A stretch of DNA of 64,000 bases from Streptomyces sp. ML-6 (GTDB lineage Bacteria > Actinomycetota > Actinomycetes > Streptomycetales > Streptomycetaceae): NCBI RefSeq assembly GCF_030116705.1, contig NZ_JAOTIK010000001.1:5112501-5176500 (forward strand). The letters run 5' to 3'. Of this stretch, positions 40,984 through 53,471 are shown piece after piece. The position numbers and the translations under genes are program-made. Each line of letters begins with the position of its first letter. Position 1 is the stretch's first letter. The notes under the pieces are model-generated. The model worked only from the letters and a program-made list of their open reading frames with translations. It did no database searches and had not been told where the DNA came from.

Positions 40984-41202
40984 ACGCCTGCCGGACCCTC
41001 CGGCCGAAGGCCCCCGACGGGCCCTGAGCGCAGGCCACCGGCCGCGCGCCCCCGTTCCCTCCCGACCCCCTTTCGAATCTTGCCAGTTGCTGCAACGCGA
41101 GCCCCACGGCGCCCACCGCTTGTCAGGCTGATGACGGCGCCGGACGGCTCGCCGGCAGCGCGGCCCCATTTCCCGAGCCACCTCCCGGAGACGAGGAGTT
41201 TC

Positions 41203-42198
41203 ATGTCTGTCGACGTCGGAAACGTGCTGGACCGCAAGACCGGCATCGTGCTCACAGAGGAAGAGAAGACCGAGCTGGAGATAGTCGCCTCCCACGTCAG
41301 CGGAATCCAGCCGCGCGCGGTGGACGACCGGTTCTGGATCGATTCGGCCAGGGACCTCTCGGCACTCCTCCCGGTCAGGCTGCGGCAGACGCTGCGCCGG
41401 TTCGTGCGCGACCCCGGAGCCGACGCGATGCTGCTCCTGCGCAACCTCCCGGTGGCCCCCGAGTCCCTCCCGGACACGCCCGGCAAGGCCGGCTCCGTGC
41501 AGCGCACGAGCACCCTGCCCGCCTCCGTGCTCGCCCTCATCTCCCTCCAGCTCGGCGAGCTGATGGCCTTCCGGGAGGAGAAGGGCGGCGCCCTGGTGCA
41601 GGACGTGGTGCCGGTCCCGGGCATGGAGGACTTCCAGGGCAACGCGGGCGCGACCCAGCTGACCATGCACGTGGAGAACGCCTTCCACCCCCTGCGCCCC
41701 GACCTCGTCGGCCTGATGTGCCTGCGCAACGACCACGACAACGTCGCCGGCCTGCGGATCGCCTCCATCCGCAACGCCCTGCCGCTGCTCTCCGAGGAGA
41801 CCCGCCGGGTGCTCCACGAGCCGCGCTTCGTCACCGCGCCCCCCGCCTCGTTCGGCGGCCTCCAGTCGCTGCCCGAGCCGCACGGAATCCTCAGCGGCGA
41901 CCCGGAGGACCCCGACGTGAAGGTCGACTTCACCAGCACCGAGGCGCTGGACCCGGAGGCGGAGCGGGCGATGGCGGAGCTCGGCGAGGTGTTCGTCGAG
42001 GTGCGCAAGACCCTCATCCTGGAGCCCGGGGACCTCGCCTACGTCGACAACCGGCTGGCCCTGCACGGCCGTACCGCGTTCCGCCCCCGCTACGACGGCC
42101 GCGACCGCTGGCTCCAGCGCGCCTTCGTCCAGCTCGACCTGCGCCGCTCCCGGCCGCGCCGGGCGGGCGACGGGCACGTGCAGTCCAGCGCCGCCTGA
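41203..42198 (+). CDS. Fe(II)/2-oxoglutarate-dependent amino-acid beta-hydroxylase-like oxygenase
   Basis: A 331-residue protein of the clavaminate synthase/TauD group, closest in style to AsnO/VioC-type hydroxylases. Iron ligands are His and Glu in QLTMHVENAFH (about residue 155) and a distal His in VDNRLALHGRTAFRPRYDGR. The following Arg-containing segment (RDRWLQRAFV) would bind 2-oxoglutarate. HxE instead of HxD is typical of the amino-acid beta-hydroxylases of this clade. It probably hydroxylates a free or carrier-bound amino acid for the peptide; which one is unknown. ATG 41203 follows GAGGAG. Confidence 0.85.
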   Translation: MSVDVGNVLDRKTGIVLTEEEKTELEIVASHVSGIQPRAVDDRFWIDSARDLSALLPVRLRQTLRRFVRDPGADAMLLLRNLPVAPESLPDTPGKAGSVQRTSTLPASVLALISLQLGELMAFREEKGGALVQDVVPVPGMEDFQGNAGATQLTMHVENAFHPLRPDLVGLMCLRNDHDNVAGLRIASIRNALPLLSEETRRVLHEPRFVTAPPASFGGLQSLPEPHGILSGDPEDPDVKVDFTSTEALDPEAERAMAELGEVFVEVRKTLILEPGDLAYVDNRLALHGRTAFRPRYDGRDRWLQRAFVQLDLRRSRPRRAGDGHVQSSAA

Positions 42199-42424: not shown

Positions 42425-42676
42425 GTGAGCACTGTCGTCGCCGAGCGCCAGGAAAAGATCAAGGACATCGTCTGCGACATCCTGGAGATCGAGCCCGAGG
42501 ACGTCACGGAGACCAGCCTCTTCAAGGAGGACCACGACGCCGACTCGCTGCGCGCCATCGAGATCCTCGCGTCGCTGGAGAAGGAGTTCCACATCGAGAT
42601 CGACCAGGCCGAGCTGGGCCGGATGGTCAACCTCAAGAGCGTCTACCAGGTCGTCTCCGACATAGCCGGCTGGTAA
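42425..42676 (+). CDS. acyl carrier protein (first)
   Basis: An 83-residue ACP. The phosphopantetheine attachment Ser is in HDADSLRAIEILASLE, at about residue 40. It starts with GTG 42425 behind GAGGAGAACCAA. It heads the PKS operon, 47 bp before the first ketosynthase. It is a stand-alone ACP as in type II systems and would carry the growing polyketide chain. A second ACP is encoded at 50409-50669, so the two may serve different steps (initiation and elongation, or different branches). Confidence 0.92.
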   Translation: MSTVVAERQEKIKDIVCDILEIEPEDVTETSLFKEDHDADSLRAIEILASLEKEFHIEIDQAELGRMVNLKSVYQVVSDIAGW

Positions 42677-42723: not shown

Positions 42724-43971
42724 ATGACGTCGTTCTCCACGGACGAGCCGGACAGTGCGCAGAGAGTGGTCCTGAGCGGGTTCGGGGTGTTCTCCAGCAT
42801 CGGTATCGGCGCGGACGCATTCGCCGAGGGGCTGCGGGCCGGGCGCAGTGGCGCCAAGCCCATCACCAGCTTCGACACCACCGGCTTCGCCTACGCCAAC
42901 GGCTGCGAGGTCAGCGACTTCGACCCCGGCCGGTGGATCCGTAACCAGGAGCTCGAGCAGCTGGGCCGTGCCGCCCGGTTCTCGGTGGCCGCCGCCAGGA
43001 TGGCCACCGAGGACGCCGGCCTGGCACCCGAGGAACTGCGCACCAGGCGCGGACTCATCTCGATCGGCACCACCGACGGGGAGTCCCGCGACCTCGACGG
43101 CCTGGTGGAGACCGAGATCCGCACCGGACCCCAGGACATGGACCCCACGGTCGCCCGGCGGGTCAGGGCCGGCCGGCTCTCCACGGCCATCGCCCACGAA
43201 CTCGGCCTGACCGACGTGGAGGCCGTCACCATCCCCACCGCCTGCGCGGCGGGCAACTACGCCATCGGCTACGGCTACGACGCGGTGCGCGCCGGCGAGG
43301 TGGACTTCGCCCTGTGCGGCGGCGCCGACGCCCTGTGCCGCAAGACGTTCGCCGGCTTCTACCGGCTGGGCACCATCGCCCCCGAGCGCTGCCAGCCCTT
43401 CGACGCCGACCGCAAGGGCATCCTCACCGGTGAGGGCGCGGGCGTCCTGGTGCTGGAGAGCCTGGCCTCCGCACGGGCCCGCGGCGCCCGCATCTACGCC
43501 GAGGTCCTCGGCTACGGACTCAACTGCGACGCCCACCACCAGGTGGCGCCCAACGGGGCGAGCGTCGGCCGGGCCATGCGGCTCGCCCTCGACAACGCCG
43601 GCGTCAAGCCGGAGGAGGTCGACCTCATCTCGGCGCACGGCACCGGGACGAAGGCCAACGACGTCACCGAGGCCCAGGCCATCCGCGAGGTGTTCGGCGA
43701 GGCGCCCCGCACCGTCTCGATCAAGTCGATGATCGGGCACACCATGGGCGCCGCCAGCGCCCTGTCCGCGATCGCCTGCTCCCTGGCGATCGTCCACGGT
43801 TTCATTCCCCCGACCATCAACCACGTGCGCACCGACCCCGAGTGCGACGTGGACTGCGTACCCAACGAGGCGGTCGAGGCCGACCTCCGTGTCGTGCTCA
43901 ACAACGGCTTGGCGTTCGGCGGGAACAACGCCGTCGTCGCCCTCGGGAAATACGAGGAGCAGGTGCGATGA
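42724..43971 (+). CDS. beta-ketoacyl synthase, type II PKS KS-alpha
   Basis: A 415-residue FabF-like ketosynthase with an intact catalytic triad: Cys in TIPTACAAGNYAI, His in SAHGTGTKANDVTE and His in IKSMIGHTMGAASA. It catalyses decarboxylative Claisen condensation of malonyl-ACP. Its stop overlaps the start of the next ketosynthase by four bases (ATGA), the normal alpha/beta pairing of type II systems. By sequence style it belongs with the highly reducing polyene and cinnamoyl-lipid KSs rather than aromatic ones, because the KR and dehydratases lie in the same operon. Confidence 0.92.
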   Translation: MTSFSTDEPDSAQRVVLSGFGVFSSIGIGADAFAEGLRAGRSGAKPITSFDTTGFAYANGCEVSDFDPGRWIRNQELEQLGRAARFSVAAARMATEDAGLAPEELRTRRGLISIGTTDGESRDLDGLVETEIRTGPQDMDPTVARRVRAGRLSTAIAHELGLTDVEAVTIPTACAAGNYAIGYGYDAVRAGEVDFALCGGADALCRKTFAGFYRLGTIAPERCQPFDADRKGILTGEGAGVLVLESLASARARGARIYAEVLGYGLNCDAHHQVAPNGASVGRAMRLALDNAGVKPEEVDLISAHGTGTKANDVTEAQAIREVFGEAPRTVSIKSMIGHTMGAASALSAIACSLAIVHGFIPPTINHVRTDPECDVDCVPNEAVEADLRVVLNNGLAFGGNNAVVALGKYEEQVR

Positions 43972-45107
43972 GCTGGCTGGTCGGTGGAGTGGGCGCGGTC
44001 GCCGGAGTCGGCCGCGACCCCCGGGAACTCTTCGACGGTCTCTGCGCGGGCCGCAGCGCCCACGCCGAGCTGCGCGGCTTCGACCGTTCGCGGTACGCCG
44101 CCCGGTACGCGTACGAGATCGACGACCGGCCGGTGCCGGGCGCCGACGTGCCCGGCCGGGCCACCAAGTGGCTGCTGGAGGCGGTCGGGCAGGCCGCCCG
44201 GGACGCGGGCCTGGGCGAGGACCTCTCGGACGTGCCCGTCCTGATCGGCACGGGGCTGCGCGAGCTGCGTTCCGTGGAGCTGTGGTGGCGCGACGGCACC
44301 CCCATGGAGGCGGACCGGCTGCACTTCGACCGCGCCCTGCGGGAACGGTTCGACACGACGGCGACGTACACCTTCGCCAACGCCTGCTCGGCCTCCCTGT
44401 ACGCGCTCGCGATGGGCACCGACCTGCTCGAACTCGGCGAGGCCGACACGGTGATCGCCGCCGGGGTGGACGTGCTCACCGAGAGCATGTACGGCCTGGT
44501 GGAACGGGTCCACCCGGTGCCGCCGGACCGGGTCAGGCCCTTCGACCGCGACCGCACGGGCGCGGTCATGGGGGACGGTGCCGCGGCCGTCGTGCTGCGG
44601 CGCGACGACGGGAACCGGCGCGGCAGGGCGCACGGACGGCTGCGCGCGGTCGGCCTGAACTGCGACGCGCACCACGCCACCGCGCCCGACGACGCCGGCA
44701 TCGCCTCGGCGATCAGGCAGGCACACGACCTGGCCGGCATGAAGCCCAAGGACATCGACCTGGTGATGCTGCACGGCACCGGGACGCTCCTCAACGACGA
44801 GGCCGAGGCCACCGCCGTCGCCGAGGTCTTCGGACCGCACGTCGGCAGGCCGCTGATGACCGCGATCAAGTCGATGACCGGCCACACCTCGGGCGCGTCC
44901 GGACTGATCGGCATGATCACGGCGATGCGGGCGCTGGAGGAGGGGCGGGTACCGCCCACCCTCGGGCTCTCCCACCCGGTCGAGGAGGCCGCGGGATTCC
45001 GGTTCGTCACCGGTGAGGAAGCCGTCGGCGAGATGTCGGTGGCCCAGATCAATGCGTTCGGCTTCGGCGGCATCAACGCCGTCGCGGTCGTGGAGGCGGT
45101 CCGTTGA
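43968..45107 (+). CDS. second beta-ketoacyl synthase with intact active site
   Basis: A 379-residue FabF-like protein in the place where a chain-length factor is expected. The active-site residues are all present: Cys in TFANACSASLYAL, His in MLHGTGTLLNDE, His in IKSMTGHTSGASGL. A classical chain-length factor would have Gln or another residue instead of Cys. It may therefore be a second active KS that pairs with the degenerate KS-like protein encoded next. Four-base overlap upstream and TTGA overlap downstream. Confidence 0.9.
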   Translation: MSWLVGGVGAVAGVGRDPRELFDGLCAGRSAHAELRGFDRSRYAARYAYEIDDRPVPGADVPGRATKWLLEAVGQAARDAGLGEDLSDVPVLIGTGLRELRSVELWWRDGTPMEADRLHFDRALRERFDTTATYTFANACSASLYALAMGTDLLELGEADTVIAAGVDVLTESMYGLVERVHPVPPDRVRPFDRDRTGAVMGDGAAAVVLRRDDGNRRGRAHGRLRAVGLNCDAHHATAPDDAGIASAIRQAHDLAGMKPKDIDLVMLHGTGTLLNDEAEATAVAEVFGPHVGRPLMTAIKSMTGHTSGASGLIGMITAMRALEEGRVPPTLGLSHPVEEAAGFRFVTGEEAVGEMSVAQINAFGFGGINAVAVVEAVR

Positions 45108-46051
45108 GCACGCTGGTTACCGGGATCGGCATCGCAGTCGCAGGTGTCGAGACCCCCGACGATCTGCTGCGGCCGAAGCCGGAGGGGAGCACCCCCGTCG
45201 AGCCGAGGGAACGGCTCGGCCGCAAGGGACTGCGCTACAAGGACCGGGCCACCCAGCTCGGTTACTGCGCGGCCCGCGACGCACTGCGCGAGGCCCGGCT
45301 CCTGGACGACGAGGACCGCGCCCCGCGGGGCGACCGGATCGCCGTCGTGGCCAGCTCCAACTACGGGAACCTGGACACGATCTGCCGGACCGTGGAGACC
45401 ATCGCGGCCGACACCGCGTCCGCCGCGAGCCCGATGGACCTGCCCAACGCCTCCAGCAACGTGCTGGCCTCCTCGGTGGCGATCCGCTTCGGCCTGACCG
45501 GGCCCAACCTGATGCTGTGCAACGGGGAGACCTCGGGCACCGACGCGGTGCGCTGGGCGCTCGCCCTGCTCGGCTCGGGCCGCGCGGACCAGGTGCTCGT
45601 CCTGGGGGCCGAACCGGACACCGAACCGGCCCGCAGGCTGTCCGGGCTGGACACCGCCTTCGACGGCGCGGCGGCGCTGGTCCTGGAGACGCAGCGCACC
45701 GCGGCGTCCCGCGGGGCCCGGGCGCGGGCCGGCATCGACGGGCACGCCCGGGGCACGGACCTGTCGTCCTGCCTGGCCGCGCTCGGCGGTGAGGACGCCC
45801 GCGTCCCGGCGGCCTGGCAGGCACCGGACACCGCGCCCGCCGGCGCGGCCGGCCTCCTCGAAGGCGTACGGGACCTGGGACTGGCACAGCAGTGGCGCGG
45901 GGCGTCGGGCGCGCTGGGCGTGCTCCAGTGCGCGGCGTCGGCCGGCTGGTTCGCCGCGGGCGGCGCCGGTCCGGTGTACGCCGTGACCGGGGGCGGCGAC
46001 ACGGGCCCCGCCGCGGGCCTGGTCCTGGTGAGCCCCGGAGAGACGGGGTGA
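45104..46051 (+). CDS. degenerate ketosynthase-like protein (chain-length-factor-like)
   Basis: A 315-residue thiolase-fold protein related to ketosynthases but about 80 residues short. The active-site Cys position reads MLCNGETSGTDAVRWAL, where the Cys of the usual ACSSG is replaced by Glu or Thr. No HGTGT motif is present. It is therefore probably non-catalytic and a dimer partner of a neighbouring KS. It starts at TTG 45104, overlapping the previous stop (TTGA), and ends overlapping the next start (GTGA). Confidence 0.8.
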   Translation: MSTLVTGIGIAVAGVETPDDLLRPKPEGSTPVEPRERLGRKGLRYKDRATQLGYCAARDALREARLLDDEDRAPRGDRIAVVASSNYGNLDTICRTVETIAADTASAASPMDLPNASSNVLASSVAIRFGLTGPNLMLCNGETSGTDAVRWALALLGSGRADQVLVLGAEPDTEPARRLSGLDTAFDGAAALVLETQRTAASRGARARAGIDGHARGTDLSSCLAALGGEDARVPAAWQAPDTAPAGAAGLLEGVRDLGLAQQWRGASGALGVLQCAASAGWFAAGGAGPVYAVTGGGDTGPAAGLVLVSPGETG

Positions 46052-46971
46052 GCGGCGGCGAGGCCACGGCCACGCTGCCCGCCCACACCCCCGGCGCCCC
46101 GGCGCCCGCCCGGCCCGCCCCGGCCGGCGGCGCCGGGCGGCCGGTGATCCTGCACCGCCACCCGGCCCGGGGCCCCGTGCGCGGCCGGATGCTGCTCCTG
46201 CACGGCCTCGGCAACAGCGCGACCGTGTGGGACGGCTTCCTGGCCCACCGCCCGCAGGGCTACGAGGTGTGGTCGGCCGACCTGCCGTGGCGCGGTGCGG
46301 GGGTGGACGGCTGGCACCACGTGCCGGACGCCTCCCCGTGGCTGGCCGAAGCGCTGGCCGGGGTGGTGGGCGGCGCGGACGTGGTCGTCGCCCACTCCTT
46401 CTCCGCGATGCAGCTGATGTCCCTGATCGACCGCGAACTCGACGCGGGCGGCGACCCGTTCGCCCGCTACGGCATCCGCGGCATGGCGCTCGTCGCCCCG
46501 TTCTACCGGCGCAGCCCCGAGGACTTCACCTGGGAGGCCATGACGCGTTACCTGGACGACTTCGAGCGGATCATGGAAGAGGGCATCCGGGTCCACTCCG
46601 GTGGAAGGCTGGACCCGGACATCCAGCTGTCGATGGCCCGCCGCGTGTGCGACCGGGTCGGCCCGTACGGCTGGATGCGGTTCGTGGACAGCTATCTGCG
46701 CACCCCCTGGCTGCGGGCCGAACGGATCGACGTACCCGTCGTGGTCATCGGCGGTGAACACGATTTCGCGGTGGAGCCGGCCGAGGGACTGAACCTGGCG
46801 GCCGAACTCCCCGACGCACAGACCCACATCCTCGCCGACTGCGGGCACTTCCTCATGGCCGAGAGGCCCGAGGAGTTCTCCGCGGTGGTCGGCGACTTCG
46901 TCAGCACACTGTCCGCCAGGGCCGGCCGGTGCCGGCCCGGCGACCGAGCCTTTGGAGAGCCGGGCCGATGA
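46048..46971 (+). CDS. alpha/beta hydrolase in the PKS operon
   Basis: A 307-residue alpha/beta hydrolase with an N-terminal Ala/Pro-rich tail of about 30 residues. Core motifs are MLLLHGLGNSATVWDGF, the nucleophile elbow VVAHSFSAMQL (AHSFS instead of GHSxG), Asp in IGGEHDF and His in DCGHFLMAERPEEF. It could act as a thioesterase or acyltransferase releasing or transferring the polyketide chain. The altered elbow makes the activity uncertain. Translation is coupled on both sides by overlapping stop and start codons. Confidence 0.82.
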   Translation: MSGGEATATLPAHTPGAPAPARPAPAGGAGRPVILHRHPARGPVRGRMLLLHGLGNSATVWDGFLAHRPQGYEVWSADLPWRGAGVDGWHHVPDASPWLAEALAGVVGGADVVVAHSFSAMQLMSLIDRELDAGGDPFARYGIRGMALVAPFYRRSPEDFTWEAMTRYLDDFERIMEEGIRVHSGGRLDPDIQLSMARRVCDRVGPYGWMRFVDSYLRTPWLRAERIDVPVVVIGGEHDFAVEPAEGLNLAAELPDAQTHILADCGHFLMAERPEEFSAVVGDFVSTLSARAGRCRPGDRAFGEPGR

Positions 46972-47972
46972 GCGACGTGACCGAGACCCAGGTCAAGACC
47001 CTTCTGCAGACCCCGACCCGGGTGCAGCTGCGCCCGAGGTTCGAGGGTTCCAACATCTGCACCTGGATCGGCTTCAAGCACGACAACTACCTGGTCGAGG
47101 AAGCGATCCTGGAGCACTTCAGGTCCGCGGGCCTGTCCACGCGCAAGCTGTACGAGGAACTCGGCCTCGGGCTGGACTTCGTGGAGATGGACGTCCGCAT
47201 CCTGAGCTCGCTGCACCTGGACGACCTGGTCACCGCCGACGTGGTGCCGGTCTTCAAGGAGGGCACGGACGGGCTGGCCTTCCGGGTCACGCTGAGCGTC
47301 GACCGCGACGGCGCGTCGGTGAAGGCGGTGACCGGCAAGGCGAAGGTGGCGCTGCGGATCGACACCACGTTCCCGCCCGAGCCGGTGCCGGCCCCGCTGG
47401 CCCCGCTCGCGGTCGAGCGCCTGGGCACCTCCGAGCCCGGCGCCGCGGCGGCCGTCGCCACGACCACGGACCTCTCCGAGGGCCACGGCACCAACGGGCC
47501 CGACCCGGTGCTGGAGCAGCTGACCGCGGGCAGGAACGCGTTCGGCTGGAAGTGGCGGATCCCGTACCCGTACTGCCACTTCACCGAGCGGCTCCAGATG
47601 TCCGGCTACCTGCGGCAGATGGAGGAGGTCGTGGACCTCTTCCTGGCCGACCGCGGGCTGTCGATCAAGACGCTCCTCGACGACCGCAAGTGGATCCCGG
47701 CCTGCTCGCACTCCCACATCAGGATCCTCGACGAGGCCCTCATGGAGGAGGACCTGTACGTGATCTACACGGTCGAGGAGGTCTTCAAGGACTTCCTCTA
47801 CCGGTCCCGGTTCGACACGTACGTGGTGCGCGACGGCCACCTGGTGCAGACCGCCACGGGGCACGTCACGCACGGCTACGCCGTCATCGACAGCCGCACC
47901 GACTGGCACCTGGTGAACTTCGACGAGCCCGTGCTGCGGGCCCTGCGCGGCGAGTCGGCACCGGACGCATGA
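46968..47972 (+). CDS. double-hotdog thioesterase/dehydratase-like protein
   Basis: A 334-residue protein made of two hotdog-like halves. The N-terminal half contains GFKHDNYLVEEAILEHFRSA and LDFVEMDVRILSSLHLDDLV. After an Ala/Pro-rich linker the C-terminal half contains YPYCHFTERLQMSGYLRQME and DFLYRSRFDTYVVRDGHLVQ. Internal duplication of this kind occurs in acyl-ACP thioesterases of the FatA/4HBT group and in AfsA-like proteins. It may hydrolyse or dehydrate the chain on ACP. The four-base overlap upstream and the ATGA overlap with the DsrE-like gene downstream show tight coupling. Confidence 0.75.
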   Translation: MSDVTETQVKTLLQTPTRVQLRPRFEGSNICTWIGFKHDNYLVEEAILEHFRSAGLSTRKLYEELGLGLDFVEMDVRILSSLHLDDLVTADVVPVFKEGTDGLAFRVTLSVDRDGASVKAVTGKAKVALRIDTTFPPEPVPAPLAPLAVERLGTSEPGAAAAVATTTDLSEGHGTNGPDPVLEQLTAGRNAFGWKWRIPYPYCHFTERLQMSGYLRQMEEVVDLFLADRGLSIKTLLDDRKWIPACSHSHIRILDEALMEEDLYVIYTVEEVFKDFLYRSRFDTYVVRDGHLVQTATGHVTHGYAVIDSRTDWHLVNFDEPVLRALRGESAPDA

Positions 47973-48295
47973 ACCAGCACCTCCTCATCGAGACGCAGGG
48001 GCCCTGGGCCGGCCGGGAGTGCGCGTCCTTCGTGCGCGACGCCACGACCCTGGCCGGCGGCGGCCACCGCACCCGGCTCCTCCTCCTCCAGGAGGGGGTC
48101 CTGGGCGCGGTCCCCGGGGAGCTGCCGGAGCTGGAGGGCTACCTGGCGGCGGACGGGGAGCTGCTGGTCGACAGGTACTCGGTCGTACAACGCGGCCTGA
48201 AGAAGGAGCAGTTGGTGCCCGAGGCCCGGCTGGTGGACATGGACGAGATCGCCGGGAGCGTACTCGACCCGGTGGTGAAGGTGGTGTGGCACTGA
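47969..48295 (+). CDS. DsrH/TusB-like protein
   Basis: A 108-residue protein. The pattern HLLIETQGPWAGRECASFVR, RTRLLLLQEGVLGAVPG and VDRYSVVQRGLKKEQLVPEA fits the DsrH/TusB fold: a small Rossmann-like alpha/beta protein with an LLQxGV loop. Its only Cys (residue 18) is not at the usual catalytic place. It is the first of three consecutive DsrE-superfamily genes. In TusBCD and DsrEFH such proteins form heterohexamers that relay sulfur as a Cys persulfide. No such partner is known to me in type II PKS operons. Confidence 0.7.
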   Translation: MNQHLLIETQGPWAGRECASFVRDATTLAGGGHRTRLLLLQEGVLGAVPGELPELEGYLAADGELLVDRYSVVQRGLKKEQLVPEARLVDMDEIAGSVLDPVVKVVWH

Positions 48296-48296
48296 C

Positions 48297-48713
48297 ATGG
48301 CCAGGGGCAGGAGGGGCATCCCGCACACCGACGTACTGGTCACCCTGATGGGTTCGCCGCACGGTTCCGACATGGTCACCAGCGTGCTGCGGCTCGTGGA
48401 GGAGATGCTGCGGCAGGACGCCGCCGTACAGGTCTGGGCGTGCGGTTACGCGACGATGCTCACCCAGGAGGGCCTGGGCGAGTCCAAGCCGCGCAACCTC
48501 GCGAACTGGTCCGGCGACTACCCGTCGACCCTCACCGTGATCCGCGGAATGCTCGCGGCGCACCCGGGCCGGCTGCACTGGTACGGCTGCCGGTTCTGCA
48601 GCGACGAGCGCGGCGCCGTGGCCCACATCCCCGAAGTCAGGCTGCGGGCGCCCTCCGCCTTCGCGGAGAACGTCGCAGCGGCGGACAAGACCCTGTTCGT
48701 GGGGGTGCTCTGA
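48297..48713 (+). CDS. DsrE/TusD-like protein
   Basis: A 138-residue DsrE-superfamily protein: VLVTLMGSPHGSDMVTSVLR, LRLVEEMLRQDAAVQVWACG, then HWYGCRFCSDERGA. It has Cys in WACGYAT and a CRFC pair, so residues for persulfide or disulfide chemistry are present. The middle SGDYPSTLTVIRGMLAAHPG is typical of the family helix before the active loop. It starts one base after the preceding stop, and the next gene starts two bases after its own stop. Function inferred from fold only. Confidence 0.72.
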   Translation: MARGRRGIPHTDVLVTLMGSPHGSDMVTSVLRLVEEMLRQDAAVQVWACGYATMLTQEGLGESKPRNLANWSGDYPSTLTVIRGMLAAHPGRLHWYGCRFCSDERGAVAHIPEVRLRAPSAFAENVAAADKTLFVGVL

Positions 48714-48715
48714 CC

Positions 48716-49147
48716 ATGACGACAACCCACACCACCGGCCCCGCGGCCGGTGCCACCGACAACGGCCGGGTCCTCGGCATCGTCGAACGCGCCCACCGCG
48801 GCGCGGTGGAGAAGCAGTTCTTCGACGTGCTGTACATGGCGGTCGAGCTCCACCGGCAGCTGGGCGGCATGGACATCCTGCTGCGCGGACCGGCCGTGAC
48901 CTGCGCGGTGGGGGCGGCCGAGACCGGCCCCCTGCGGTTCGGCGACCGGGTGCTGGACACCCTGACCGACCCGCGCCACGACCTGCGGGTGCTGCTGGAC
49001 GCCGGGGTGCGGATCTTCGTGCAGGAGGAGGACCTGACGGCCCTCGGATTCACCCCCGGCGACCTGTTCGACGAAGCCGTCCGCCCGGTGCCCGCCGCGG
49101 AGATGGCCGGGCGGTGGCCGGAGTACCGGATGGTGAGCTACCTGTGA
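48716..49147 (+). CDS. DsrF/TusC-like protein
   Basis: A 143-residue protein with an N-terminal Thr-rich tail. The core is VEKQFFDVLYMAVELHRQLG, GMDILLRGPAVTCAVGAAET and LRVLLDAGVRIFVQEEDLTA, which fits the DsrE/F superfamily. One Cys (VTCAVG) lies at the end of strand 2. Together with the two preceding genes it gives a B, D, C-like set. Behind it a 115-bp gap interrupts the otherwise overlapping operon before the next KS-like gene. Confidence 0.7.
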   Translation: MTTTHTTGPAAGATDNGRVLGIVERAHRGAVEKQFFDVLYMAVELHRQLGGMDILLRGPAVTCAVGAAETGPLRFGDRVLDTLTDPRHDLRVLLDAGVRIFVQEEDLTALGFTPGDLFDEAVRPVPAAEMAGRWPEYRMVSYL

Positions 49148-49262: not shown

Positions 49263-50336
49263 ATGACCAAGACTGTGATCTCCGCGTGGTCGGCCGTCTC
49301 GCCGTTCGGCATGGGCCGGGACGCCTTCGTGGGCGGATTCCACGACGGCCGGTCCACGGTCGCCCCGGTCGACCGCGAGCAGTGGCAGACGCCCGACGAC
49401 GAGGTCTGCCTCGTCCCCGGCTTCAGCCCGGCCGCCGCCCTGGGCAAGAAGGGCACGCGCGCCATGGACCGGGCCACCGGCCTCGCGGTCTCGGCGGTGG
49501 GCCGGCTGATCGAGGAGTCGCCCTCCGACCCCGCCACCGTCACCGGTGAGGAGGTCGCGCTGGTCCTGGGCACCACCTCGGGCAGCGTGCAGAGCATGAT
49601 GGACTTCACCCGCGGCGGCCTCGTCTCGGAGAAGCCCTACTTCGTCGACCCGGCGCGCTTCCCCAACGCGGTGATGAACTGCGCCGCCGGACAGTGCGCC
49701 ATCTGGCACCAGCTCAAGGGCCCCAACACCACCATCGCCGGGGGCCGGGTCTCCGGGCTGCACGCCCTGAAGTACGCCCAGCGGCTGCTGAACGCGGACC
49801 GTGCCCGCACCGTGCTGTGCGGCGCCGTCGAGGAGTACGCCGACGCCCGTGCCTGGCTGGACCGGCACGCGCGCGGCGAGGACGAGCACGGCACCATCCA
49901 CGGCGAGGGCTGCGTGATGCTCCAGATCGAGTCCGAGGGCTCGGCGCAGGGCACCCCGCTGGCGACCGTCCAGGCCGTCGAGGTGGGGGTCTTCGCGGGC
50001 GGCGGCGAGAACGCCGCCCCCGTGCTCGACACCTGCGTGCGCCGGGCGCTGGAGCGGTCCGGCACCGACCCGGCCGACGTGTGGATGGTCGCCCCGAGCG
50101 GCGCGCGCGGAGCCCTCGGCGACGCCGAACAGTCCGTCCTGGAGTCCCGGTTCGCCCCCACGGCGGTGAACCGCGTGTCGCAGCTGATCGGCGACACCGC
50201 CGGGGCGGCGGCCATGTTCCAGATGGCCGCGGTGCTGGCCGTCGCCGAGCGGGCCGAGGCCGCGGGCCGGACCGCGGTCGTCACCGCGGTGGACCGGGAC
50301 GGCGAGGCGGGCTGCGCGGTGCTGCGACTGGGCTGA
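49263..50336 (+). CDS. second degenerate ketosynthase-like protein
   Basis: A 357-residue KS-fold protein. The active-site region reads NTTIAGGRVSGLHALKYAQR, so the Cys of TACSSG is lost. The first His motif is replaced by VAPSGARGALGD, and the second reads LIGDTAGAAAMFQ. All three catalytic residues are absent, as in chain-length factors. It may pair with one of the two active KSs. ATG 49263 follows AAGGAATGG; the ACP gene follows 72 bp downstream. Confidence 0.85.
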   Translation: MTKTVISAWSAVSPFGMGRDAFVGGFHDGRSTVAPVDREQWQTPDDEVCLVPGFSPAAALGKKGTRAMDRATGLAVSAVGRLIEESPSDPATVTGEEVALVLGTTSGSVQSMMDFTRGGLVSEKPYFVDPARFPNAVMNCAAGQCAIWHQLKGPNTTIAGGRVSGLHALKYAQRLLNADRARTVLCGAVEEYADARAWLDRHARGEDEHGTIHGEGCVMLQIESEGSAQGTPLATVQAVEVGVFAGGGENAAPVLDTCVRRALERSGTDPADVWMVAPSGARGALGDAEQSVLESRFAPTAVNRVSQLIGDTAGAAAMFQMAAVLAVAERAEAAGRTAVVTAVDRDGEAGCAVLRLG

Positions 50337-50408: not shown

Positions 50409-50669
50409 ATGACATCCGCAGTGCAGGCACTGGACCTCGAGCAGCTCCGCGCGCTCATCGCCGAGGTGCTCGACGTCGAGGTCTCGGACATCGCCGACGA
50501 CACGAACTTCGCCGACGACCTGGAGATCGACTCCCTGATGGCCCTGGAGGTCGTCGTGGTGCTGGAGAAGCGCTACCAGGTCAAGCTCCGCGAGGAGGAG
50601 CTCAAGCAGGTCACCTGCCTGAAGGCGGCTTACGACCTGCTGGAGCAGAAGCTGCGGACCTCGCAGTGA
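50409..50669 (+). CDS. acyl carrier protein (second)
   Basis: An 86-residue ACP with attachment Ser in FADDLEIDSLMALEVVVVLE (about residue 41). ATG 50409 is preceded by GAGAGAGGACA. The stop overlaps the start of a hotdog protein (GTGA). The sequence differs clearly from the first ACP (42425-42676). Confidence 0.93.
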   Translation: MTSAVQALDLEQLRALIAEVLDVEVSDIADDTNFADDLEIDSLMALEVVVVLEKRYQVKLREEELKQVTCLKAAYDLLEQKLRTSQ

Positions 50670-51097
50670 CCGTCGCCGGACCCGTCGCCGGGTCCGTGAC
50701 CGGGGTCTCCCCGGTCACGGCCGGCATCCGCGTCGTGCGCCCGGCGACGGCGGAGGAAGGGGGACGCCTGACGGCGGCCACCGTCTGCCGCGTCGACCCC
50801 GCCGAACAGATCTTCGCGGGCCACTACCCCGGCTTCCCCATCTTCCCCGGGGTCTGCGTCATCGAATGCGTACGCCGCAGCGCCCTGGCCACCGCGCCCG
50901 GCCCGGTCACGCTGGCCGCGGTGGAGTCCGCGCGCTTCCGCGGACCGGTGCTGCCCGGCGACGAACTGTCCATGGAACTCGTCTGGAAGCCCGACGGCCC
51001 CGAAGGACGGGACTGGCGGGTCACGGCGACCGCCCGCACCGACCGGGGCGACGCCGCGTCGATCCGGCTGGGCTTCAGAACGGGAGGCCGGCCGTGA
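50666..51097 (+). CDS. FabZ/FabA-like beta-hydroxyacyl-ACP dehydratase
   Basis: A 143-residue hotdog protein. The active-site segment is FAGHYPGFPIFPGVCVIECV, with His in GHYPG and Glu in VIEC, the residues used by FabZ for dehydration. The rest (VESARFRGPVLPGDELSMEL) fits the FabZ/FabA family. It would remove water from the beta-hydroxyacyl-ACP made by the KR. GTG 50666 overlaps the ACP stop and its own stop overlaps the next hotdog gene, so the two are probably a heterodimer. Confidence 0.85.
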   Translation: MTVAGPVAGSVTGVSPVTAGIRVVRPATAEEGGRLTAATVCRVDPAEQIFAGHYPGFPIFPGVCVIECVRRSALATAPGPVTLAAVESARFRGPVLPGDELSMELVWKPDGPEGRDWRVTATARTDRGDAASIRLGFRTGGRP

Positions 51098-51576
51098 TCG
51101 GTACCGTCGAACTGCGCCGGCTGCTGCCGCACCGCTTCCCGATGCTGCTGGTGGACCGGGTCGACGAACTGGTGCCCGGCGAGCGACTGGTCGCCCGCAA
51201 GGCCGTCACCTGCAACGAACCCTGGTACGCCGCGCTCCCGCAGGACGCCGGGCCGCAGGACCACCACTACCCCGAGGTGCTGCTCGTGGAGTCGTGGTGC
51301 CAGGCGGCGGGCGTCCTGGCCACCTGGGACGACCCCAACCCGGACGTGCTGAACGGGCAGGTGATGCTGTTCGGCGGCGTCAGCGACGCCCGGTTCGAAC
51401 GGCCCGTGTTCCCCGGTGACGTGGTGGAGCACCGGGTCCGGGTCTACCGGGTGCTGAGCGACACGATGATCTTCGAGGGCGAGTCGCTCGTGGACGGCGA
51501 AACGGTCATGACCGTCGCGAGGGCCACGATGGCGTTCCGCCCGGCGGAGCAGCTCCGCGCGGCCACCGGGACCTAG
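51094..51576 (+). CDS. FabZ-like hotdog protein, partner dehydratase subunit
   Basis: A 160-residue hotdog protein with the FabZ opening LLPHRFPMLLVDRVDEL. In place of the usual HFPGxPxxPG loop it has DHHYPEVLLVESWCQAAG, so the Pro/Gly-rich part of the active-site loop is missing. The later ARFERPVFPGDVVEHRVRVY is normal. Such unequal pairs form heterodimeric dehydratases in polyene pathways. GTG 51094 overlaps the stop of the first dehydratase. Confidence 0.82.
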   Translation: MIGTVELRRLLPHRFPMLLVDRVDELVPGERLVARKAVTCNEPWYAALPQDAGPQDHHYPEVLLVESWCQAAGVLATWDDPNPDVLNGQVMLFGGVSDARFERPVFPGDVVEHRVRVYRVLSDTMIFEGESLVDGETVMTVARATMAFRPAEQLRAATGT

Positions 51577-51639: not shown

Positions 51640-52386
51640 GTGGGAGACAAGCCGTCCCGCGTCGCGCTCGTCAGCGGCGGATCACGGGGCATCGGAAGAG
51701 CAGCGGTGCTGCGCCTGGCCCAGGACGGCCACGACGTGGCCTTCTGCTACCGGTCCGACGCCGAGGCCGCGCAGGCGCTGGAGAAGGAGGTGTCCGAACT
51801 GGGCGTGCGGGCCCTCGCGGTCCGTACCGACGTCACCGACGCCCAGGCGGTGCGCGACCTGACCGAGCGCACCGAGGACGAACTCGGACCGATCGACGTC
51901 CTCGTCACCTCGGCCGGCATCACCAGCGACAACCCGCTGCTGCTGATGACCGACGAGCAGTGGCACAACGTGCTGGACACCAACCTGGACGGCGTCTACC
52001 ACGTCTGCCGGGCCGCCATCTTCGCGATGATGAAGCGGAAGTCCGGCTGCGTCGTCAACGTCTCGTCGGTCGCCGGGGTCTACGGCAACGCACGGCAGAC
52101 CAACTACTCGGCGTCCAAGGCCGGCATCATCGGCTTCACCAAGGCCCTCGCCAAGGAGACCGGGCCGTACGGCATCCGCGCCAACGTCGTGGCGCCCGGC
52201 TTCATCGACACGGACATGACCTCCGCGCTCCAGGGCGGGGTCAAGGACCGGGCGCTGAAGTCGATCCCGCTGGGCCGGATGGGCCGGGCCGAGGAAGTCG
52301 CCGACCTCATCGCCTACCTGGCCTCCGACCGCGCCGCGTACATCACCGGTTCCGTCTTCCAGATCGACGGCGGAATCACCATCTAG
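51640..52386 (+). CDS. beta-ketoacyl-ACP reductase, FabG-like SDR
   Basis: A 248-residue short-chain dehydrogenase. NADPH-binding motif VALVSGGSRGIGRAAVL; catalytic Ser in NVSSVAG; YxxxK in QTNYSASKAGI; C-terminal ITGSVFQIDGGITI. It would reduce the beta-ketoacyl-ACP made by the KS pair. It starts at GTG 51640 behind AGAAGGAG. The reducing and dehydrating genes side by side show that the chain is fully processed to alkenes at each round or most rounds. Confidence 0.93.
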   Translation: MGDKPSRVALVSGGSRGIGRAAVLRLAQDGHDVAFCYRSDAEAAQALEKEVSELGVRALAVRTDVTDAQAVRDLTERTEDELGPIDVLVTSAGITSDNPLLLMTDEQWHNVLDTNLDGVYHVCRAAIFAMMKRKSGCVVNVSSVAGVYGNARQTNYSASKAGIIGFTKALAKETGPYGIRANVVAPGFIDTDMTSALQGGVKDRALKSIPLGRMGRAEEVADLIAYLASDRAAYITGSVFQIDGGITI

Positions 52387-52459: not shown

Positions 52460-53167
52460 ATGGCCAAGCGCGGCCCACGCTGGTACTTCAATTTCCGCAG
52501 CCCGTACTCCTGGCTGGCCCACCGGGACCTGGTGGACCGGCACGGCGACGTCGCCGACGCCGTCGAGTGGATCCCGTACTGGGACCCGGACCCGCGCAGC
52601 GAGAAGGCGCTGGCCGGGGCGGGCGGCTCGTTCCTCTACACCCCGATGTCGCGGGAGAAGCACTTCTACGTGCTGACCGACGTGCGCAGGCTCGCGGCCG
52701 ACCGGGGCCTGACCGTGTCCTGGCCCGTCGACCGCGAACCCGTGTGGGAGGTCTCGCACCTCGCGTACTACCTGGCTGCGGACCGGGGCCTCGGGCCCCG
52801 GTACGTCGACCTCGTCTACCGCGCGCGCTTCCAGGACGGCAGGAACATCTCGGACCCCGAGGTGATCGCCGACGTGGCCGGGCGGATCGGCCTCGACCCG
52901 GCAGCGGCGGCTGCCGCGGCCGAGGACCCGGAGCTGCGGTCCCGGTCCACCGAGGCGCTCATGTCGGCCTACAAGGACGGGGTGTTCGGCCCGCCCTTCC
53001 TCATCGCGGGGCGCGAGAAGTTCTGGGGCCTGGACCGGCTCGACCGGTTCGCCGACGCCGTACGCGCCACCGCGCCGGCCCGGCCCGGAACGGTCGCGCC
53101 GGTGCCCGAAGAAGCCCTGTCGACCACCGCCTCGGGAGACCTGGGGCACGCCGGAGGCTGCGGCTGA
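52460..53167 (+). CDS. DsbA-fold isomerase (HCCA-isomerase-like)
   Basis: A 235-residue thioredoxin-fold protein of the 2-hydroxychromene-2-carboxylate isomerase group: WYFNFRSPYSWLAHRDLVDR at the N-terminus, helical insert, and C-terminal AYKDGVFGPPFLIAGREKFW, the usual VFGxPxF segment. There is no CxxC motif, so it is not a disulfide oxidoreductase. In polyene-type type II systems a DsbA-like isomerase changes double-bond geometry so that a benzene ring or a cis double bond can form; the same role is likely here. ATG 52460 follows GGAAGG. Confidence 0.82.
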   Translation: MAKRGPRWYFNFRSPYSWLAHRDLVDRHGDVADAVEWIPYWDPDPRSEKALAGAGGSFLYTPMSREKHFYVLTDVRRLAADRGLTVSWPVDREPVWEVSHLAYYLAADRGLGPRYVDLVYRARFQDGRNISDPEVIADVAGRIGLDPAAAAAAAEDPELRSRSTEALMSAYKDGVFGPPFLIAGREKFWGLDRLDRFADAVRATAPARPGTVAPVPEEALSTTASGDLGHAGGCG

Positions 53168-53226: not shown

Positions 53227-53448
53227 ATGTCGACCAACCCGTTCGAGGACAAGGACGCCACCTACCTGGTGCTCGTCAACGACGAGGGCCAGCACTCGCT
53301 GTGGCCGGTCTTCGCCGAGGTGCCGGCCGGATGGACCGTCGCCCTCAAGGAGTCCAGCCACGACGACGCGCTCGCGTACATCGAGGAGAACTGGACCGAC
53401 ATGCGGCCCAAGAGCCTCGTCGCGGCGATGGAGAGCCCCGCCGCGTGA
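53227..53448 (+). CDS. MbtH-like protein
   Basis: A 73-residue MbtH protein: NPFEDKDATYLVLVNDEGQH, SLWPVFAEVPAGW and ENWTDMRPKSLV. These proteins bind adenylation domains of NRPSs and are often needed for their solubility and activity. It ends the PKS operon, 60 bp after the isomerase, and is convergent with the thioesterase gene. ATG 53227 follows GAGGAG. Confidence 0.95.
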   Translation: MSTNPFEDKDATYLVLVNDEGQHSLWPVFAEVPAGWTVALKESSHDDALAYIEENWTDMRPKSLVAAMESPAA

Positions 53449-53471
53449 CGGACCGTCCGCGCGGCGCCGTA

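Follow-up and report, generated by a model that had tools for sequence, protein, structure and literature searches.

Among the clusters of highly reducing type II polyketide synthases (PKSs) that make cinnamoyl-type chains, the closest described counterpart of the three genes analysed here is the Kcn17-Kcn18-Kcn19 set, which, according to the abstract of the primary 2022 study, reportedly forms a three-protein complex that performs an electrocyclisation and then a dehydrogenation, and has homologues across about 200 such clusters. The papers cited here describe Kcn17-Kcn18-Kcn19 as catalysts of the 6-pi benzene-ring closure in kitacinnamycin (PMC9321520), assign the kitacinnamycin PKS to kcn4-kcn15 plus kcn33, with kcn14 as the ketoreductase (KR; PMC6510318), and name GlaE-GlaQ and GlaF-GlaG as pairs of ketosynthase (KS) and chain-length factor (CLF) of the gla pathway (PMC9381841). 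The closest described fold is that of a sulfur relay: DsrEFH is hexameric, DsrE-Cys78 binds sulfur in vitro, and its counterpart TusD Cys78 is critical for sulfurtransferase activity in E. coli (PMC3397948). We analysed a window, the whole stretch of 64,000 nucleotides from Streptomyces sp. ML-6 (NZ_JAOTIK010000001.1, 5,112,501-5,176,500), in which three small genes on the + strand, here named T1, T2 and T3, nearly touch one another among PKS genes. An earlier note on this DNA had seen the pattern of the DsrE superfamily in them; the genes are present as described, and the fold is backed by the profiles of relatives and by predicted structures of T2 and T3. It is quite likely that T1-T2-T3 make up one heteromeric complex of TusBCD/DsrEFH fold, homologous to Kcn17-19, the three-protein cyclase of cinnamoyl chains. 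The three genes are:

47969..48295, + strand: T1, TusB/DsrH-like subunit, 108 amino acids (aa; profile evidence)
48297..48713, + strand: T2, TusD/DsrE/YchN-like subunit, 138 aa (profiles, alignment, predicted structure)
48716..49147, + strand: T3, DsrE-superfamily subunit with no conserved Cys, 143 aa (predicted structure; nearest chains DsrH/TusB-type)

T2 and T3 are assigned to the DsrE superfamily by predicted structure, both individual models adopting the DsrE fold, and T1 is assigned by profile. The Pfam check proposed in the earlier note gave a mixed answer: window T1 stayed below the cut-offs (DsrH, 14.6 bits versus 24.4; DsrE, 14.2 versus 22.7) and window T2 and T3 had no match, but relatives of T1 and T2, and one relative of T3, matched DsrE. 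At E values up to 1, DsrE was reached by 22 of 28 members of the T1 family (best 4.3e-7), 16 of 30 of the T2 family (best 2.4e-4) and 1 of 25 of the T3 family (0.041), and DsrH by 13 of the 28 T1 members. T1 did not reach the curated TusB model TIGR03011 (13.7 bits; cut-off 49.2); in an hhalign comparison with seven E. coli proteins TusB came out best (82%). One T1 alignment (A4) matched only DsrH, TusB, YchN and DsrF among PDB chains at E<=10 (E 0.082-0.18), and the earliest, small T1 alignment matched no DsrE-type PDB chain. The best PDB sequence match of T2 is YchN (1jx7; E 5.5e-4, or 0.0041 with a broader T2 alignment), the best single T2-YchN stretch in a motif alignment having an E value of 0.079. 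T3 finds its best, weak, sequence match in MTH1491-like DsrE-family proteins (MTH1491 itself); these and YchN were solved as proteins of unknown role. A strict TusC assignment of T3 is doubtful, hhalign placing TusC first of the seven but at 2% and the predicted structure favouring a DsrH/TusB chain.

Cysteine conservation was read from alignments of the window with 79 loci (80 rows; 76 for the Cys column of T3). Cys49, Cys98 and Cys101 of T2 are each present in 80 of 80 rows, the DsrH-type Cys18 of T1 is present in 31 of 80, and no Cys column of T3 exceeds 20 of 76. That the Cys positions are only partly conserved, as had been noted earlier, therefore holds for T1 and T3 but not for T2. Further charged or aromatic residues are strongly conserved in the alignments. 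Cys98 of T2 aligns to TusD Cys78 of E. coli, so that T2 has a Cys at the persulfide position of the E/D subunit.

Like TusBCD of E. coli and DsrEFH of Allochromatium vinosum, the trio is a set of small genes lying side by side and sharing a single fold; the E/D chain is matched by T2, the H/B chain by T1. It differs in gene order, with the H/B-type subunit first where E. coli has tusD, tusC, tusB; in T3, whose best chain is the H/B one and not F/C; in the extra Cys49 and the CxxC of T2; and in its PKS neighbours and the acceptor DsrC/TusE, which was not found in any of the 24 trio genomes searched. YchN shares a CxxC...RG motif with T2 but has no Cys opposite Cys49.

A protein search, which covered relatives sharing short exact words, returned 60 T2 relatives, 42 T3 relatives and 6 T1 relatives, and some of these carry the source annotation DsrE-family. 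The best 80 of 81 T2 relatives from a genome scan were then taken as a locus set. T3 accompanies T2 in 80 of these 80 loci, T1 in 79 and both in 79, the remaining locus (L024) starting 134 bases upstream of T2; with 79 complete loci, the trio is a fixed unit, more than chance would give. The neighbourhood search for DsrE trios near KS/CLF genes that the earlier note had called for bore out the association: a KS-family gene was seen in 76 of the 80 trio loci (none in L012, L021, L027 and L038, of which L021 and L038 are short contigs), and the trio often stands directly before the CLF1 gene.

Across 392 Streptomyces genomes, T2 was found in 32 and HD2, the double-hotdog protein encoded directly ahead of T1, in 61, all 32 lying within the 61 (Fisher P 2e-30, kinship ignored). 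At 33 of 39 T2 places, HD2 or a strong match to the putative DSBA-fold isomerase of the pathway (listed below) lies within 60 kb. Two of the six others (G164, G338) are on 32- and 22-kb contigs, one (G150:C1148) has a weaker, uncounted isomerase piece at the contig end, and one (G214) has the HD2 gene and isomerase on a contig other than that of T2. Conversely, T2 lies within 60 kb of 32 of 75 HD2 places and of none of the other 43, some of which are in broken assemblies. Since all T2 genomes encode HD2, yet 43 of 75 HD2 places are without T2, the trio is an optional extra in clusters that encode highly reducing type II PKSs. In 20 trio-less loci, picked for HD2 and the absence of T2 (trio loci were found via T2), the KS, CLF, KR, dehydratase (DH) and isomerase queries match 19 or 20 of 20 and that of the acyl carrier protein ACP2 15 of 20, with the trio in 0 of 20. 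A T3 search of 61 relatives gave four matches, in three trio genomes and in G395, a member of another family with a divergent trio among PKS genes. Mirror-tree correlations (Pearson) are 0.85 for T2-T3, 0.76 for T1-T3 and 0.65 for T1-T2; because the trio correlates with KR as well (0.81 to 0.88), they speak for co-inheritance rather than a specific complex. In the T2 tree the window stands next to L001 and L002. T2 homologues of 65-70% identity also occur in six Streptomyces plasmid records (256-737 kb, predicted non-mobilizable).

The surrounding genes of the window, all on the + strand, are:

42425..42676, + strand: ACP1, acyl carrier protein (similar genes at the equivalent place in relatives)
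42724..43971, + strand: KS1, active-site Cys in TACAAG (Pfam and motif)
43968..45107, + strand: KS2, Cys in NACSAS (Pfam and motif)
45104..46051, + strand: CLF2, KS-like without Cys (Pfam and motif)
46048..46971, + strand: alpha/beta hydrolase (Pfam)
46968..47972, + strand: HD2, double-hotdog protein, Pfam 4HBT_2 covering its second half (Pfam)
49263..50336, + strand: CLF1, KS-like without Cys (Pfam and motif)
50409..50669, + strand: ACP2 (Pfam)
50666..51097, + strand: DH1, putative, dehydratase-like (position and motif)
51094..51576, + strand: DH2, putative, dehydratase-like (position and motif)
51640..52386, + strand: KR (domain match)
52463..53167, + strand: DSBA-fold protein, likely the pathway cis-trans isomerase of GlaV/YsfG/EpcL type (fold match; placement after KR)
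53228..53449, + strand: putative MbtH-like protein, ahead of the non-ribosomal peptide synthetase (NRPS) (gene context of relatives)

We take DH1 and DH2 to be dehydratase-like from position and motif, and the last protein to be MbtH-like. KS1, KS2, CLF2, the hydrolase gene and HD2 form successive genes overlapping by four bases. The trio had been described as translationally embedded between HD2 and a KS-like gene; this stands upstream, where the T1 start overlaps the HD2 gene end by 4 bases, but not downstream, where 115 bases separate T3 from CLF1 (T1-T2, 1 base; T2-T3, 2 bases). Two KS genes keep the active-site Cys and two KS-like genes lack it, which makes two KS-CLF pairs likely; on the model of GlaE-GlaQ and GlaF-GlaG these are likely KS1-CLF1 (42724, 49263) and KS2-CLF2 (43968, 45104). 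The DSBA-fold protein is likely a GlaV/YsfG/EpcL-type isomerase, judging from its place after KR (PMC9381841, PMC9321520). Outside this contig, the genome has a second isomerase copy, 47% identical (G000:C4:101417-102118); its sole HD2 match is the one in the window. ARAGORN calls a tRNA-Ser (cga) on the opposite strand inside the isomerase gene (52740-52825, - strand), probably falsely. Directly before ACP1 lies a TauD-family dioxygenase gene (41080-42198), whose product may hydroxylate an amino acid of the peptide part. The cluster continues beyond the right end of the window.

Gene counts, order and elimination together make the trio a likely Kcn17-19 homologue. From ACP1 to the isomerase, and excluding the trio, the window holds twelve PKS-related genes, a count equal to the kcn PKS set. 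Kcn17-19 are likewise three proteins named jointly; their cluster, too, joins a highly reducing type II PKS of cinnamoyl type to an NRPS, and they are numbered outside kcn4-kcn15 plus kcn33. They differ in that, by number, the kcn trio stands between the PKS genes and the NRPS genes kcn21-23, whereas the window trio lies inside the PKS operon. The genes of the window trio co-occur as three in clusters with a highly reducing type II PKS (79/80 loci; 33/39 T2 places), and a known cinnamoyl-peptide cluster carries them: in S. griseus BIG105 (L076/G274), with its WS9326-type cluster, the trio lies ~35 kb from the sole HD2 gene and strong isomerase match, large NRPS-size open reading frames (ORFs) standing between. 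The cal-like cluster of BIG105 is over 90% identical to cal (PMC6510318). In gla, judged from gene lettering, five genes (L to P) fall between CLF3 and CLF1, and in locus L040 a short-chain dehydrogenase/reductase (SDR), a hydrolase, T1, T2 and T3 occupy the equivalent place, the third CLF there being a weak match of 40 bits; the gla paper counts a dehydrogenase and a hydrolase among the enzymes awaiting study (PMC9381841). The earlier note knew of no polyene or cinnamoyl-type PKS needing such a trio and ranked it the least explained part of the cluster; the ring closure described for Kcn17-19 (PMC9321520) probably supplies the explanation, the trio occurring in the WS9326-type cluster of BIG105 and many others. 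In the accessible parts of PMC13311259 (which contain neither 'Kcn17' nor 'DsrE'), PMC10054270, PMC10817512 and PMC9381841 we found no mention of the trio. A cispentacin-type system was rejected: NCBIfam AmcF and AmcG match the KS-like genes below their cut-offs, and the accessible text of the cispentacin paper does not contain 'DsrE'.

In the proposed pathway, KS1-CLF1, KS2-CLF2, KR and the DHs would build an ACP-bound polyene, in which the DSBA-fold isomerase would turn one double bond cis. The trio, expected from its homology to DsrEFH to be a hexamer, would bind this chain, close the ring by 6-pi-electrocyclisation and presumably help to strip off two hydrogens, leaving a benzene ring, after which the cinnamoyl-type acid would prime the downstream NRPS. 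Speculatively, Cys98 and Cys101 of T2 could form a redox pair with Cys49 nearby. Tentatively, and with more doubt than confidence, a sulfur-relay complex may here have turned pericyclase, with Cys98, Cys101 and the added Cys49 as a thiol/disulfide site acting on the ACP-bound polyene and taking two electrons to leave benzene, so that the sulfur cargo role was lost and its chemistry kept as catalysis.

A phytoene-desaturase-like flavin adenine dinucleotide (FAD) enzyme, considered as one of the three cyclase proteins, was rejected as an obligate partner, as it occurs in only 8 of 80 trio loci (L004-L008, L010, L011, L020; called genes in stretches of at most about 20 kb, which miss farther copies, with weak 21-28 bit matches in L027 and L067 uncounted). 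Two of the 20 trio-less loci (L094, L098) have such an enzyme as well, as does the BIG105 cluster (L111). The called window genes include no counterpart of the FAD dehydrogenase of L005, which fits a trio doing both steps, short of proof, as the cluster extends past the window. In a sub-group (L004-L008, L010, L011, L020, L114, L115) a CLF-like (KS4-like) gene and a large FAD amine-oxidase-type enzyme come after the trio, and L005 also has, by eye, P450- and glycosyltransferase-like ORFs.

A sulfur relay, in which a persulfide on T2 Cys98 would be passed on and the product or a pathway cofactor would gain sulfur, is very improbable. T2 does keep the Cys aligned with TusD Cys78, the counterpart of the sulfur-binding DsrE-Cys78 (PMC3397948), and two TusA-family matches in its own genome mean that a donor could exist, but both are >500 kb away from the cluster studied here. 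A search of 24 of the 32 trio genomes found DsrC/TusE in none (0 of 24). Of its 14 controls just one, E. coli, was positive, so that genomes often lack DsrC/TusE and a different acceptor could serve. The PKS cluster L113, whose trio is the most divergent, encodes a ThiS-family carrier ending in GG (L113:16675-16950, - strand), but no other fetched locus, nor the window, has this gene. Only T2 has conserved Cys, the DsrH-type Cys being kept in 31 of 80 T1 rows. WS9326A, the product of a cluster type with the trio, is to our knowledge sulfur-free. The suggestion that the product gains sulfur is thus unlikely to hold, and sulfur delivery was set aside as the leading explanation after DsrC/TusE, TusA in the own genome and a ThiS-type carrier had been looked for; we propose instead that the thiol chemistry serves catalysis and not cargo.

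The alternative raised in the earlier note, recruitment as a non-sulfur complex, fares better as to the non-sulfur role than as to a chain-holding scaffold. That the trio merely holds the ACP-bound chain or docks the KS-CLF pairs would suit its frequent position immediately ahead of CLF1 and the hexamer expected from DsrEFH homology (PMC3397948), yet it is improbable: a working site is suggested by the three invariant T2 Cys and by other strongly conserved residues, charged or aromatic; T2 is absent within 60 kb of 43 of 75 HD2 places, and trio-less loci keep the same KS/CLF kinds; and Kcn17-19 are described as ring-closure catalysts (PMC9321520). It is likewise very improbable that the trio uses its thiols to assist the DSBA-fold isomerase, or to bring about the cis-trans change itself, without closing a ring. 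Both partners could use thiol chemistry, and the isomerase relative YsfG is glutathione-dependent (PMC9381841), but the isomerase matches in 20 of 20 trio-less loci and so seems not to need the trio.

Several points weigh against ring closure by a Kcn17-19-like complex. Its equivalence with Kcn17-19 is deduced from gene counts, order and elimination, and the kcn numbers do not map one-to-one onto the window (kcn7 is called a KS, whereas the window KS genes stand second and third in the run). The multimer and its active site are putative, and the fold of T1 comes from profiles. The comparison of trio with trio-less loci is partly circular by selection on T2. The trio is not always beside a PKS, the L012 and L027 stretches showing no KS-family gene, and at two T2 places (G055:C3:3282183, G372:C22:76980) both HD2 and isomerase are missing within 60 kb, without an obvious contig break. 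At the former the trio adjoins NRPS-size genes (L102, G055:C3:3270000-3289999), and both genomes also hold a trio-less HD2 locus, so that the pathway may be split.

The case of the trio is very probably largely explained. What had been the least explained part of the cluster can now be assigned to a known step, the making of a benzene ring from a polyene. To this the analysis adds a link from the cyclase to the fold of TusBCD/DsrEFH, one subunit having three invariant Cys; in the open-access literature, most subscription papers lying outside it, we found no statement tying the cyclase to the DsrE/TusBCD fold. The trio, with T2 within 60 kb of 32 of 75 HD2 places, would also serve as a simple marker for clusters whose acyl chains are likely aryl and not linear polyenes.
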